IMG/VR virus record: IMGVR_UViG_3300030102_000958 | Location: 4,319-31,646 of that record | Source: a virus | Length of the DNA: 27,328 bases | Reading direction: 5' to 3' (one strand) | Part shown: piece after piece, positions 1,772 through 5,429 of the stretch | How the letters are laid out: the number at the start of each line of letters is the position of its first letter | Position numbering within the stretch: the first letter of the stretch is position 1 | Notes under the pieces: model-generated | Databases searched by the model: none | Seen by the model: only the letters and a program-made list of their open reading frames with translations | Told to the model about the DNA's origin: nothing | Made by a program: the position numbers and the translations under genes

Positions 1772-1794
1772 AGCTTTCTCCTTTAAAACAACAT

Positions 1795-1881
1795 CCGAAT
1801 AACACGGCCTTTCCAAGCGTCAAGGTCGGCGAAGCCGCCGAAGGGGAACCTTTACGCGAGATGGAAAGACTGTGTTATCGG
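1795..1881. other. 87-nt elongated hairpin, gene-free
   Basis: The outer arms 1795-1815 and 1862-1881 pair over 19 positions, with one bulge (1799), one G.T pair (1806/1871) and one mismatch (1808/1869). The inner arms 1817-1826 and 1848-1857 pair at 9 of 10 positions. A tip hairpin CGGC-GAA-GCCG sits at 1827-1837. On the minus strand it would be in the leader of the gene starting at 1771, ending about 12 nt before the ribosome binding site. The wobble positions do not decide the strand. It may be an RNase III processing site, an mRNA stabiliser or a small RNA; there is no T run to make it a standard terminator. Confidence 0.6.
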
Positions 1882-2048
1882 AACTGAAACACTTGGCAAT
1901 CTCAAATATATTTTCATTGGTGTGAAACGTAATCTCAACGGCGCAACACTCGCGCCGTGTCGACTGCCTTGACTTGGACGGCATCGCGAGAGCGTGAGCG
2001 TGAGCGATGGTTTACATTGCATGCGTAGCATGTAGATTACGCCGTAGG
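1882..2048. other. Gene-free stretch with several hairpins
   Basis: With its flanks this completes a gap of about 290 nt (1772-2058) with no supportable gene. It holds a strong 7-bp hairpin (1938-1944 with 1952-1958, ACGGCGC...GCGCCGT), an ATCGC/GCGAT pair (1983-1987 with 2004-2008) enclosing three copies of a GAGCGT-like hexamer, and CATGC-GTA-GCATG at 2020-2032. A 56-codon minus-strand open frame crosses it but has no ribosome binding site and an unnatural composition, so I do not call it. The stretch is visibly more GC-rich than the neighbouring genes. Confidence 0.5.
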
Positions 2049-2077
2049 CATACTGCTCTCATATAGAGAGCAGTATG
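2049..2077. repeat. Perfect 12-bp inverted repeat, 5-nt loop
   Basis: CATACTGCTCTC, ATATA, GAGAGCAGTATG: a perfect inverted repeat. Read on the minus strand it overlaps the last codons and stop of the 26-codon ORF (stop at 2059-2061), so it could act as a 3' stabiliser or a terminator for that message. There is no T run after it on either strand, so a classical intrinsic terminator is not supported. Confidence 0.75.
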
Positions 2078-2139
2078 TATGCGATGCTGTACAAAGTACA
2101 GCAAAGCATGATGAAATTTATGAGAGCGTAGCGAATCAT
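2059..2139 (-). CDS. 26-aa single-pass membrane peptide
   Basis: This ORF is too short for ordinary calling. On the minus strand a GGAG at 2147-2150, seven bases before the ATG at 2137-2139, opens a 26-codon frame reading MIRYALINFIM, then LCCTLYSIAYILLSI, stop. Residues 4-26 are almost wholly hydrophobic, enough for one membrane helix, with a basic residue at position 3 that favours N-terminus-in orientation. Two tight hairpins flank or overlap it (2159-2183 before the ribosome binding site, 2049-2077 over the stop). It could be a small holin-like, toxin-like or superinfection-exclusion peptide. That role is inference from size and hydrophobicity only, and chance occurrence is possible. Confidence 0.5.
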   Translation of the reverse strand: MIRYALINFIMLCCTLYSIAYILLSI

Positions 2140-2158
2140 ATGATATCTCCTGAAAGGT

Positions 2159-2183
2159 GAGCAGTACCCATTGGGTACTGCTC
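2159..2183. repeat. 11-bp perfect hairpin after the 257-aa gene
   Basis: GAGCAGTACCC, ATT, GGGTACTGCTC: a perfect 11-bp stem with a 3-nt loop, starting 12 nt beyond the minus-strand stop at 2195. Its position fits a transcript end or processing site after the leftward 257-codon gene. It lacks a T run on the minus strand, and what follows is a ribosome binding site for the small ORF, so attenuation or mRNA processing is more likely than full termination. Confidence 0.65.
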
Positions 2184-2194
2184 GAGTTGAAGGA

Positions 2195-2968
2195 TTAGCT
2201 GTCGATGCCATCGGCTTCGTCAGCTTGCTCTTTGAGCTTGGACTCAGTAACTTGATTACTGAGGACTTGCTGGGTCTTGGCATTAGCCTTGATTTGGTCA
2301 AGCAAGGCTTGTCCTTGCTCAGCAGAAGCTGTGTCAGCTTTTGCTTGCTTTTGCGACCAAGGAGTAAAAGCCTCTCCCTGAGTTGCCTTGTACCAAGCTT
2401 CGATAACAGACTGAATCTCGTAGATGCGATTAGCAGTCTGCGTGTTGATGTCAGACCTGAAGCTGTCATGTGCGATGCACTCGGCATCACGAGAACCAGC
2501 TCCCTTGTTGTGGAGGACTGCGTCTTTCAGAGCTTTTGCTTGCTGGTATCCAGCAACCTTTAGAGTGGAGGCGATAGCAGAGCTATCTTCTCCAGTCTTT
2601 GTCTTTCTGTGGAAAGACTCAAGAAGTGGTTGCAAGAACCGAAGTGTTCCAAGCTGTCCAGTAGGGACAGTTTCATCGGTGTCCTCCATGATGCGCTCGC
2701 CAGAAGCTGTCGTTCCGACTTGCTTCTGGTATCGATGCTCGCCAGCATCGATGTCAAAGTACATCTCATATGGATGACAGATGTTGCCATCTCCCATGAG
2801 GTACTCAATGACTTTCAGCATAGCCAACTGAGGGTCAAGCGAAGCATAGACATTGGCAGTCGACTTTTTGTCGAGTGCCTTCTGCATGTTCGACCATGTG
2901 CTATCCATATGGTCTTCTGTGATACGATATGTACTGATTACTGAATTGATTTTAGATTTGATGTCCAT
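2195..2968 (-). CDS. Hypothetical protein, 257 aa, first leftward gene
   Basis: First gene of the leftward module, with AAGGAG six bases before its ATG at 2968. I do not recognise the family. The N-terminal half has mixed helix and strand (SVISTYRITEDHMDSTWSNM; AMLKVIEYLMGDGNICHPYE). The C-terminal third, from about residue 205, is rich in Ala, Gln, Lys and Glu (SQKQAKADTASAEQGQALLD and onward) and is probably a coiled coil or flexible tail ending in an acidic DEADGID stretch. There are no membrane segments. Its position next to the large noncoding region suggests strong, perhaps immediate-early, transcription from a divergent promoter, though I could not identify convincing -35/-10 boxes. 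Confidence 0.75.
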   Translation of the reverse strand: MDIKSKINSVISTYRITEDHMDSTWSNMQKALDKKSTANVYASLDPQLAMLKVIEYLMGDGNICHPYEMYFDIDAGEHRYQKQVGTTASGERIMEDTDETVPTGQLGTLRFLQPLLESFHRKTKTGEDSSAIASTLKVAGYQQAKALKDAVLHNKGAGSRDAECIAHDSFRSDINTQTANRIYEIQSVIEAWYKATQGEAFTPWSQKQAKADTASAEQGQALLDQIKANAKTQQVLSNQVTESKLKEQADEADGIDS

Positions 2969-2998
2969 GATAGACTCCTTTTTTAAGTTAAGTTACAG

Positions 2999-3620
2999 AA
3001 CTCATACATACGAGTTCCCAATAACAGTTTTAGGCTAACAAGGGCGAACTCGAAAAGCAGACAAGGTCTGCTGGTAAAGATAGAAAAAAACAGCGTTTTA
3101 CGAGGAGACAAGCACCAGCGAGCTGGTGTGCAGACGAGGACATAAAACGGCTAAGCCCTGTTTTTTACTATCTTTATTCGATTTGTCCGTTACCAAACAA
3201 GGAGACGCGTGAGCGTGGCGACTATGTTTGCCCAATGCAAGATTACACCACAAGCTCATAGACTAGCAGACACCGTTATTCGGCTTGTCCGAATGACTGG
3301 CTGGTAGGCAATGTTCTTGTGGCGACCCTATCTCAACGCAGATAGGGGAGTCTTGCATGAAGTTGCTCGTAGCAGAGCGTTAAGCGAGCAATCTTGTAAA
3401 ATGGGAACTCGTGTGTGTGTGTCCTCTGTGCGCACTCGAGGTGACTGGAGTGAGGAAGGTAGCGACCAAGCTACACGAAACGTAGAGCAAGCAGTCGCTT
3501 GCCGTAGTGAAGTGATAGTGCGGAGGAGCGACTGACGAACGCAAGGAACTTCGCAGAGGATTTAGCACAGAGCAGATAGCTTGCATGCGTCAGCATGAAG
3601 AAAACGTGCCTGTGGCACAA
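2999..3620 (+). ncRNA. Candidate large, highly structured noncoding RNA
   Basis: This gap of about 620 nt has no credible gene but many nested helices that I traced by hand. 3003-3020 pairs with 3402-3419 (18 continuous pairs, two of them U.G). Inside are 3056-3062/3066-3072; a long arm 3075-3093/3158-3176 (18 of 19) continuing as 3094-3100/3143-3149 and 3113-3118/3123-3128; 3194-3199/3225-3230 enclosing 3205-3208/3213-3216 capped by a GUGA tetraloop; 3235-3242/3351-3358 enclosing 3248-3254/3316-3322, 3276-3283/3289-3296 and 3326-3333/3340-3347; and 3363-3369/3385-3391. A second domain spans 3422-3572 and two small hairpins follow. The U.G pairs (3005/3417, 3009/3413) would become A.C on the other strand, so the RNA is plus-strand. 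Size and style recall the GOLLD and ROOL phage RNAs or other marine RNAs; I cannot assign it to one. Confidence 0.7.
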
Positions 3621-3632
3621 TTAACATATTGA

Positions 3633-3674
3633 CAAGTGTGCTGAAGATTGGCAACAATCGAGGCATGACACTTG
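3633..3674 (+). promoter_or_regulatory. Hairpin with GCAA tetraloop over the terS start codon
   Basis: CAAGTGT (3633-3639) pairs perfectly with ACACTTG (3668-3674), and inside it GATTG (3646-3650) pairs with CAATC (3655-3659) across a GCAA (GNRA) loop. The ATG at 3665-3667 and the only Shine-Dalgarno-like GAGG (3660-3663) lie between the two stems. This could hide or present the start site of the small terminase gene, or be the 3' element of the large upstream RNA. Seen in sequence; the regulatory role is inference. Confidence 0.5.
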
Positions 3675-4033
3675 TGAAGATAACCGAGAAACAGAAGAAG
3701 CTGGTTGATACGTTAGTAGCAACTGGCGATTCGATAAAGAACTGTGCAAAGATTGCTGGTTACGCTGACGGCGAAGCTGGAAGGGTAAGTGCCAGCAAGG
3801 CTTTGAAGACACCACATGTGCAACAGTACATGATGACAGCGATAGCAGACAGCATGTCTGTGCATGCTACGAAAGCATTGAGTAGGATTGTAACTCTGAG
3901 CAGTAATGCGAAGAGTGAGTATGTGAGCCTTGAAGCGAGTAAAGACTTGCTCGATAGAGCTGGCTTTCGAGCGCCTGACAAGGTGATGCATAGTCATGTA
4001 GGTAATGTCAATGTAAAGATTGATTTGTCTTGA
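3665..4033 (+). CDS. terS: Terminase small subunit, DNA-recognition protein (122 aa)
   Basis: Residues 6-56 (ITEKQKKLVDTLVATGDSIK, NCAKIAGYADG, VSASKALKTPHVQQYM) show the usual pattern of phage small terminase subunits: an N-terminal helix, then a helix-turn-helix of the type aA..AGY......ASk.L..P.V..yl. The rest (ALSRIVTLSSNAKSEYVSLE, ASKDLLDRAGF) is the expected helical oligomerisation region, ending in a short polar tail. The subunit binds the packaging site and hands the DNA to the large subunit encoded at 6472. I chose the ATG at 3665; the longer TTG-initiated frame from 3629 would run through a GNRA-capped hairpin and has no ribosome binding site. The first gene of the rightward module, it is separated from terL by a cluster of small basic genes, an arrangement I associate with marine podoviruses. 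Confidence 0.75.
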   Translation: MTLVKITEKQKKLVDTLVATGDSIKNCAKIAGYADGEAGRVSASKALKTPHVQQYMMTAIADSMSVHATKALSRIVTLSSNAKSEYVSLEASKDLLDRAGFRAPDKVMHSHVGNVNVKIDLS

Positions 4034-4056
4034 GCTTCTCTGTATACCATACAAGC

Positions 4057-4092
4057 GTAGTTGTCTGCGATGCTTGCAGAGCGTACAACTAC
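4057..4092. repeat. 8-bp inverted repeat after terS
   Basis: GTAGTTGT (4057-4064) pairs with ACAACTAC (4085-4092), and CTGC (4065-4068) with GCAG (4076-4079) inside. It lies 24 nt after the terS stop and is followed by an AT tract (ATATATATAC), not a T run. It may be a transcript-processing hairpin or a weak terminator. Confidence 0.5.
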
Positions 4093-4119
4093 ACAGATAT
4101 ATATACGTCAGGCTTGACA

Positions 4120-4193
4120 GCAGTTATGACCCCGTGGGGGGTCAAAAACTGCACAGGCATGACAATGCGATGGTCTTGCCCTGACATTTTTTT
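4120..4193 (+). terminator. GC-rich hairpins followed by a T run
   Basis: GCAGTT (4120-4125) pairs with AACTGC (4147-4152), and inside it TGACCCC (4127-4133) with GGGGTCA (4138-4144) over a GTGG loop. A second, imperfect stem (about 4154-4158 with 4178-4183) is followed by ACA and seven T (4187-4193). In addition GTCAGG (4107-4112) can pair with CCTGAC (4180-4185), enclosing both. This is compatible with an intrinsic terminator or attenuator between terS and the gene cluster starting at 4213. It is not a textbook terminator, because the stem nearest the T run is weak. Confidence 0.5.
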
Positions 4194-4212
4194 CTAAAAA
4201 AGGAGTTTACAC

Positions 4213-4542
4213 ATGAGAGTTGGAGTAATGATGGCTGGTCTACTTAAAAAGTTATTGCAAACAAAACAGAACGTAGATAGTCTTTCTGAAGAGGAGATAG
4301 TTGATGTCAAAGACACCACTCTGGCAACGCAAGGGGGGGAAGAATCCAAAGGGAGGGCTAAACGCGGCAGGCCGCGCCTCAGCTCGAAAGCAAGGAATGA
4401 ACCTCAAAGCGCCAGTAAAGTCAGGAGACAATCCTCGAAGAGCAAGCTTTCTAGCAAGGATGGGGAACGCAAAAGGTCCAGAGTACAAGGACGGAAAACC
4501 AACAAGACTTCTTCTAAGTCTAAGGGCATGGGGAGCAAGTAG
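4213..4542 (+). CDS. Overlapping ORF, 109 codons, basic, uncertain
   Basis: The ATG at 4213 has an excellent site (AAAGGAG, 8 nt spacing), so ribosomes very probably start here. The first 30 residues (MRVGVMMAGLLKKLLQTKQN, VDSLSEEEIV) look like a normal protein. From 4304 the frame overlaps the better-supported gene 4304-4624 for 239 nt, and the rest is Ser/Lys/Arg-rich low complexity. That part includes KRGRPRLSSK, which resembles an AT-hook core (RGRP), though it may be a frame-shifted shadow. Options are a true overprinted DNA-binding protein, a short leader that couples translation to the next gene, or a frameshift leader. No family is recognised. Confidence 0.4.
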   Translation: MRVGVMMAGLLKKLLQTKQNVDSLSEEEIVDVKDTTLATQGGEESKGRAKRGRPRLSSKARNEPQSASKVRRQSSKSKLSSKDGERKRSRVQGRKTNKTSSKSKGMGSK

Positions 4543-4624
4543 TAAGGCTGATGCTCGAGCAAAGGCAAAAGCTATTAGTAAGCGTAACGAGAAGGCGAAG
4601 AGTTCAAATAAAAACGTTGGGTGA
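4304..4624 (+). CDS. Small basic phage protein (DUF6321-type), 106 aa
   Basis: Begins MSKTPLWQRKGGKNPKGGLN, then AAGRASARKQGMNLKAPVKS, GDNPRRASFLARMGNAKGPE, and ends with a Lys/Ala-rich tail. The WQR..GKNP.GGLN..GR....... .LKAPV......... RR.SF.ARM.G..GP...... PTR...... W pattern is a conserved family of very small phage proteins that I recall as DUF6321; its function is unknown. The ATG at 4304 has GAGGAG seven bases upstream, so it is preferred to the TTG at 4301. It occurs, as here, close to terminase genes, and its strong basicity suggests nucleic-acid or virion association (inference). Confidence 0.8.
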   Translation: MSKTPLWQRKGGKNPKGGLNAAGRASARKQGMNLKAPVKSGDNPRRASFLARMGNAKGPEYKDGKPTRLLLSLRAWGASSKADARAKAKAISKRNEKAKSSNKNVG

Positions 4625-4649
4625 GAATCCAGAACCAAAGGAGAAGTAA

Positions 4650-5429
4650 ATGGCTGAAGAAGATAAGAACGTACCAGCACGACCAAAGATAACTTATCAT
4701 GTAAATTATTTAAAGTCTCGAAGAGCTGCAAAAGCTTGGGATAAGAAATATAAGAAGACCCATAAGCCTGACGGCTCACCAAAGAAATCAAAGGATGAAA
4801 AGAGAGCTGATATAAGAGCAAGGCTAAAGACCAGCAAAGAAAGTGGTGGTATTGGCAAGGAGGCGAAGAGACGATATTCCGGTGAGGGAGAGGTCGATAA
4901 CCAAGCTAGAAGAACTCTAAAAGGCTCTGCTGAAAGAGCAAAGAGAATGACTGAGGTAGCTAAGTCTACAAAGTCAGATGCTAGTAAAAAATTAACTCAG
5001 GTAGGCAAAGCAAAGAGTACCATGTCAGATGCTCAGAAGATGAACTTAACAACTAGGAGTTCTATGTCTGATGCACAGAAAAGGGGACAAGTTCCTAAAT
5101 CAACTTCATCTATGTCGGATGCTCAGAAGAGAGGAGCTGTTCGAAGGTCTAAGGCAACGATGTCTGATAAACAAAAAGCTAGAGCCGATAGTAAACCTAG
5201 CTCAGATACATCTTCTTCTACAACCTCTAGCAAGAAAGACATGACGTTTAAAGAAGCGTTTAGGCAAGGTGTGAAAGATAGGAAAGCTGGAAAGGGTATG
5301 AACTTTACTTGGAGAGGAAAGTCTTATGCCGCCGTTACTCAGGATGAAATTGACAAAGCACAGAAAGCTGGCAAGATAAAAAAGAATACCTTGAGAGCTT
5401 TCTTAAACATGAAAAGGAAAAAGAAATAA
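4650..5429 (+). CDS. Lys-rich repeat protein with WRGK C-terminal motif, 259 aa
   Basis: Very basic, almost without hydrophobic core. Residues 1-60 are Lys/Arg-rich (YLKSRRAAKAWDKKYKKTHK). Residues 123-178 carry four spaced copies of an octamer (S/A)(T/S)MSD(A/K)QK at about 123, 137, 153 and 169, with a decayed copy near 106. A Ser/Thr linker (182-196) leads to a C-terminal module FKEAFRQGVKDRKAGKGMNF, TWRGKSYAAVT (about 200-230) of a type common at the C termini of small phage proteins. It is likely a disordered nucleic-acid-binding or virion-internal protein; the function is unknown. AAGGAG precedes the ATG. Its stop overlaps the next start (TAATG). Confidence 0.75.
   Translation: MAEEDKNVPARPKITYHVNYLKSRRAAKAWDKKYKKTHKPDGSPKKSKDEKRADIRARLKTSKESGGIGKEAKRRYSGEGEVDNQARRTLKGSAERAKRMTEVAKSTKSDASKKLTQVGKAKSTMSDAQKMNLTTRSSMSDAQKRGQVPKSTSSMSDAQKRGAVRRSKATMSDKQKARADSKPSSDTSSSTTSSKKDMTFKEAFRQGVKDRKAGKGMNFTWRGKSYAAVTQDEIDKAQKAGKIKKNTLRAFLNMKRKKK

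Follow-up and report, generated by a model that had tools for sequence, protein, structure and literature searches.

What occupies the long spacer in front of the terminase genes of this virus is the question raised by the locus described here. The window, by which we mean the whole stretch of 27,328 nucleotides analysed, comprises bases 4319-31646 of IMG/VR record IMGVR_UViG_3300030102_000958, a viral contig of 31,646 bases. It encodes TerS, TerL, a head-tail adaptor, and capsid and tail proteins, and therefore derives from a tailed phage. As the closest annotated phage is Pelagibacter phage EXVC031P Hodr (OQ414635; 64.5% identity in TerL and 52.5% in TerS), this is likely a marine phage with a SAR11 (Pelagibacter) host. 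Leftward genes are followed by the spacer and then by rightward structural genes. The spacer is noncoding, spans 660 nt, and separates a leftward gene of 257 aa with no assigned function (2195-2968, minus strand, start at 2968; ORF list and homologues) from terS (3665-4033, plus strand), for which homologue comparison favoured the start at 3665 over a TTG at 3629. Its GC content is 49%, compared with 39% for the window, and its purine skew agrees with the rightward genes and disagrees with the leftward ones. We refer to the structured RNA of this spacer as RNA-1 (2985-3610, plus strand, inferred limits). RNA-1 borders the leftward gene 2195-2968, starting immediately upstream of its RBS, and is located at the early/late switch.

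The first-pass annotation had seen no credible gene in this region, and comparison with related loci bore this out. In L002, L004 or L107, stop codons or frameshifting indels interrupt every reading frame open for at least 45 codons, the single exception being a 50-codon open frame at 3155-3304 that holds no start-to-stop ORF of 50 aa. With the frames broken in homologues, no conserved protein was found to run through the region, and protein coding was rejected.

Folding of the spacer gave a minimum free energy (MFE) of -244.6, compared with -188.6 +/- 6 for dinucleotide shuffles (z = -9.3 on the plus strand); the z on the minus strand was -6.4, also against dinucleotide shuffles. A search with TerS recovered 80 IMG/VR loci with a related terS. 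Most of these have a spacer of 350-1300 nt at the equivalent place, usually strongly structured, and folding z of the spacers of at least 350 nt ranged from about -1 to -21 (rough values, from 12 shuffles each). The groups compared were g1 (the window, L001, L052, L002, L004, L107 and L163; seven sequences), g2 (L003, L010, L013 and L020), g3 (L012, L018 and L019), g4 (L007, L008, L009, L011, L015, L016, L017, L021, L022, L023 and L027) and g5 (L024, L025, L026, L029, L030, L032 and L033); L014 was left ungrouped.

The collection of homologues and the covariation test that had been proposed for this region were carried out as a comparison with column and letter shuffles. The structure tested was the minimum-energy fold of the window alone, projected onto the seven g1 sequences. 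Doubly changed cells exceeded shuffles (20 versus 7.6 +/- 1.8, with none of 500 shuffles reaching 20), a count that is supportive rather than a formal p-value, as are those below, because the shuffle controls ignore phylogeny. The signal was lost when partners were slid by one to three columns, the covariation score being 0.071 in register and 0.009-0.036 when slid. Further standard pair types were not above shuffles (497 of 500 reached the observed value), and the signal therefore lies in double changes and not in variety. Consensus folds compared with column shuffles gave 30 compensated pairs for g1 (13.8 +/- 4.0 in shuffles) and 75 for g4 (32.2 +/- 5.7). For g5, compensated pairs were not separated from shuffles (26 versus 22.2 +/- 3.1) and consensus energy was (-178.8 versus -129.6 +/- 3.9). 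Selected secondary structure, as judged by covariation, and the lack of a conserved encoded protein both characterise large structured noncoding RNAs, and both were found here. We conclude that RNA-1 is very probably a genuine selected RNA structure.

The anatomy of RNA-1, with all coordinates on the plus strand, is dominated by a long closing helix, P1, whose 24-nt arms (2997-3020 and 3402-3425) are 83% complementary by repeat search. The 18-bp helix described earlier at 3003-3020/3402-3419 is perfect and includes two U-G pairs (3005/3417 and 3009/3413), and a C-G to U-A double change occurs at the inner end of P1 (3019/3403). The helix is real, but the structure runs past 3419 into a less conserved 3' domain with indels (3426-3610; g1 alignment and shuffle test). 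Inside P1, a long arm pairs 3033-3053 with 3178-3194 (g1 alignment), with double changes from A-U to G-C at 3038/3190 and from A-U to C-G at 3047/3183. It encloses a hairpin, GCAGAC/GUCUGC, that is invariant in the g1 alignment (3056-3072) and an arm pairing 3074-3093 with 3158-3177 (repeat search and g1 alignment), in which C-G changes to U-A at 3091/3160. The latter arm, previously given as 3075-3093/3158-3176, is indeed present, and its single mismatch at 3084/3167 is a proper pair in six of six homologues. Above it, an apical hairpin (3112-3129) forms part of a module of about 40 nt. The capped stem at 3205-3216 was also recovered, its GUGA cap being a GNRA loop; it changes from A-U to G-C in two homologues and is broken in one. 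The core domain is closed by a stem of 3235-3242 with 3351-3358, supported by the fold and invariant in g1, and contains the core hairpin (3248-3322) and an adjoining hairpin (3323-3350) with three doubly changed pairs. A further hairpin (3360-3395) shows A-U to G-C at 3360/3395.

The core hairpin is the most conserved part and is common to g1, g2 and g3. Its inner residues are almost all invariant across these groups, and every pair of its outer 7-bp stem is replaced between groups with pairing kept. Nine pairs are doubly changed, and 97.7% of cells are paired compared with 85.2% in shuffles. A covariance model of the core found no member beyond the g1-g3 loci in 591 kb from 78 sources. The gapped pattern CATAGNCTA...TAGGCAATG gave 81 matches in viral contigs, with the hairpin present only in the known family and the remaining matches chance-like; in genome contigs the same pattern occurred in one Prevotella MAG contig, where the hairpin is not formed. 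A search for a kissing-loop partner of the core loop found none.

P1 is found again in g3, L014, L024/L026 and L030, where its base is a CA-repeat/UG-repeat and its distal half has changed. Across five sequences, pairing holds in 98.8% of its cells and three pairs are doubly changed. When the upstream partner strand was compared with 300 shuffles, at most 4 reached its complementarity in each of the 11 loci tested. The 3' strand, identified by repeat search, pattern scan and pairing counts, carries the conserved UCGUGUGUGUGUGU. A protein-blind DNA scan with the 3'-strand pattern GGANNTCGTGTGTGTGTGT returned 12 contigs, namely known members together with the more distant L168, L169, L170 and L171. 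L169 and L171 encode a TerS homologue, and in both the P1 motif lies immediately before terS; L169 additionally encodes a TerL homologue. L168 and L170 have the motif with no recognisable terS alongside. Additional common sequence was found inside the domain of L168, L170 and L171, which appear to represent a further related RNA group with GGAUGUCGUGUGUGUGUGU and internal segments such as GGGCUUUACGGA in common.

Arms are gained, lost and swapped among phages, and the core and P1 persist. The module at 3110-3149 is missing as a unit from L002, L004 and L107, the window lacks an 87-nt 3' hairpin that L001 has, and loop motifs including CGUCUAUCAG and CCCUCUUGGG recur across several groups. Even at 95% identity, L018 and L019 have a swapped core loop and paired changes in the hairpin CGAGGCAAAGCCUCG/CGAGCCAAAGGCUCG. 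The RNA of L163 is mosaic-looking when its 3' half is compared with L107 and L052, being L107-like around window positions 3195-3235 and L052-like elsewhere. This turnover of arms around a persistent core and P1 fits a scaffold better than a small regulator.

The strand was assessed using only helices predicted identically on both strands. Pairs with G-U outnumbered pairs with A-C by 43 to 17 in the RNA-1 groups, and by 58 to 20 with the inclusion of RNA-2, a neighbouring structured RNA described below (binomial p = 2e-5 for the latter). The invariant pair of the core hairpin is U-G on the plus strand and would be A-C on the minus strand. The plus strand is thus preferred, if on indirect evidence, and we hold with good confidence that RNA-1 would be made from it; together with covariation, the strand test backs the large ornate noncoding RNA that the first-pass annotation had placed there. 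Both observations run counter to reading the region as a 5' leader made from the minus strand and controlling the leftward gene 2195-2968. Such a leader would be in keeping with the structured region abutting the RBS of that gene, with the like placement of RNA-2 relative to the next leftward gene, and with the long stem over the RBS in the cultured relative Hodr, but given the strand counts and the invariant pair we consider it quite improbable. Even less likely is a DNA element such as a pac site, an origin or a cruciform. Inverted repeats are present in the spacer and pac sites often lie near terS, but the excess of G-U over A-C pairs, the helices spanning 380 nt and the multi-arm topology point to RNA.

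Other alternatives turn on the relation of RNA-1 to terS. A promoter, TTGACA-N18-AACAAT (3629-3658, plus strand), lies directly before the ATG. Its -35 is conserved ahead of terS in about 30 loci; these have TTGACA and a downstream element near the ATG (3665 in the window), and an AT-rich AAATTAA-like element precedes. The -10 of this sigma-70-like promoter (window 3629-3664) ends six bases before the ATG, which suggests a leaderless terS mRNA. In the L036 group, TerS is 70% identical and the promoter is kept, with a spacer of only 138 nt that is unstructured. Spacer size across relatives ranges from 138 to more than 1300 nt, and the RNA is therefore dispensable in some of them. As the L036 group keeps the promoter without the RNA, it is the promoter rather than the RNA that consistently accompanies terS, and this argues against both a terS leader and an obligatory packaging RNA. 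A cis-acting plus-strand leader might alter RNA polymerase while nascent, as the put RNA of HK022 does, or control read-through into the late operon; RNA-1 opens the rightward late region in the matching orientation, and in g1 no terminator stands between it and terS. We nevertheless regard this as unlikely, because the conserved terS promoter is downstream of RNA-1, so that late transcripts need not contain it, and because members of the class are 400-1300 nt, much longer than the put elements of about 70 nt, and some relatives have no RNA. The earlier suggestion of a packaging-related RNA, working with the terminase in the manner of phi29 pRNA, draws on its position directly upstream of terS in many relatives; like that pRNA, it is a phage RNA tied by position to packaging genes. 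RNA-1 is far larger, however, and is absent or replaced in phages with homologous terminases. A pRNA would be present wherever its cognate packaging motor is, whereas 138-nt spacers precede homologous terS genes here. The terS promoter intervening between RNA and gene and the P1 motif of L168 and L170, which has no recognisable terS adjoining it, likewise speak against a packaging role, which we think very unlikely.

Rfam searches (4227 families, including GOLLD, ROOL, OLE and IMES) gave no match at gathering scores in the window, none meaningful up to E = 10, and none in 16 related loci either. ARAGORN found no tRNA genes in the window or in ten related loci, and BLAST of the spacer against phage records gave no match. 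A group I intron, considered for CAUAGACUA, was dropped as there was no Rfam match and this motif pairs within one hairpin. The phage RNAs GOLLD and ROOL frequently occur close to tRNA islands and form RNA-only cages (PMC12286853). Like GOLLD, RNA-1 is carried by phages, noncoding, large and built of many helices, and it combines a conserved part with a variable one; like ROOL, it is a large ornate phage RNA without a known protein partner (PMC12286853). It differs from GOLLD in its placement before terS and in having neither an Rfam match nor a tRNA in the window or the ten related loci, and from ROOL in the lack of an Rfam match, and the membership in either family that had been entertained earlier was not supported. 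To our knowledge, a (CA)n/(UG)n closing helix and a core hairpin as in RNA-1 have not been described for ROOL. The cage is an RNA-only 14-mer nanocage in GOLLD and an RNA-only multimeric nanocage in ROOL. OLE RNA, found for the most part in Bacillota that are Gram-positive extremophiles or anaerobes (PMC12054373), is similar to RNA-1 in its length of about 600 nt and complex fold, but differs in its mostly Bacillota hosts, and RNA-1 gave no Rfam match to it. GOLLD, ROOL and OLE make up the known large ornate RNAs. RNA-1 is comparable to them in scale and likewise has both conserved and variable parts, but the membership tests run assigned it to none of them, and it is filed under none. The remaining proposal of the first-pass annotation, a new class, agrees with the lack of an Rfam match and with the covariation and strand tests supporting a structured RNA.

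RNA-2 (1794-2194, plus strand; folding z, covariation and strand counts) lies between two leftward genes, 800 nt upstream of RNA-1. Positions 1817-2194 of the window are noncoding, with folding z of -7.2 and -7.9. RNA-2 has 20 compensated pairs versus 10.7 +/- 2.5 in controls, and its ratio of G-U to A-C is 18:4 over all shared pairs. Its 5' domain (1795-1881) is conserved across g1-g5 as well as in L014, and a pattern scan matched it in 33 viral contigs. Covariation supports this domain strongly, with 11 pairs doubly changed versus 3.9 +/- 1.4 in shuffles. Comparison of RNA-2 with Rfam gave no credible match.

Structured spacers of other kinds were also observed. In L059 (about 3534-4797; also in L057, L061, L063 and L065), a 610-nt imperfect inverted repeat with arms about 73% identical lies upstream of terS, and its left arm contains a leftward ORF of 145 codons. 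Folding z of the L057-group spacers is about -30, and the repeat is kept in L065 despite a spacer only 74% identical. Hodr has the identical divergent gene layout and a structured spacer of 337 nt, but this folds as one long stem-loop covering the RBS of the leftward gene (4640-4813 of L087, the Hodr locus) and has no detectable similarity to RNA-1.

RNA-1 is best read as representing a new class of large noncoding RNAs of phages, modular in build, that would be GOLLD/ROOL-like in style and not a member of either. The long P1 with its CA-repeat/UG-repeat base closes a multi-armed domain of about 400 nt that holds the highly conserved core hairpin, with a looser 3' domain after it. RNA-1 would be made as its own transcript during infection, although no consistent or conserved promoter site of its own was found in the related loci compared, and its 3' end lacks an obvious terminator in g1. 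It may act in trans as a folded scaffold that binds protein or host machinery, or self-assembles like the GOLLD and ROOL RNAs. Its position upstream of the terS promoter and its architecture point to a discrete trans-acting RNA, and we judge the chances of such a scaffold to be even. More tentatively, RNA-1 and RNA-2 may be the first described members of a two-RNA system of marine phages. RNA-1, fast-evolving, modular and 400-1300 nt long, would sit at the early/late switch, and RNA-2 would be its smaller companion, whose 90-nt domain is deeply conserved; both would be produced together from the plus strand and would assemble into a machine of RNA, or of RNA and protein, whose function would be new among phage RNAs.

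Large structured RNAs without an assigned function are uncommon, and two that phages carry, GOLLD and ROOL, were recently shown to form RNA cages. RNA-1 would bring in a further class unrelated to these, together with a companion RNA, in relatives of a SAR11 phage. The virus group includes a cultured relative, Hodr on HTCC1062, and the turnover of arms around a fixed core constitutes a natural experiment on which parts of the RNA matter.
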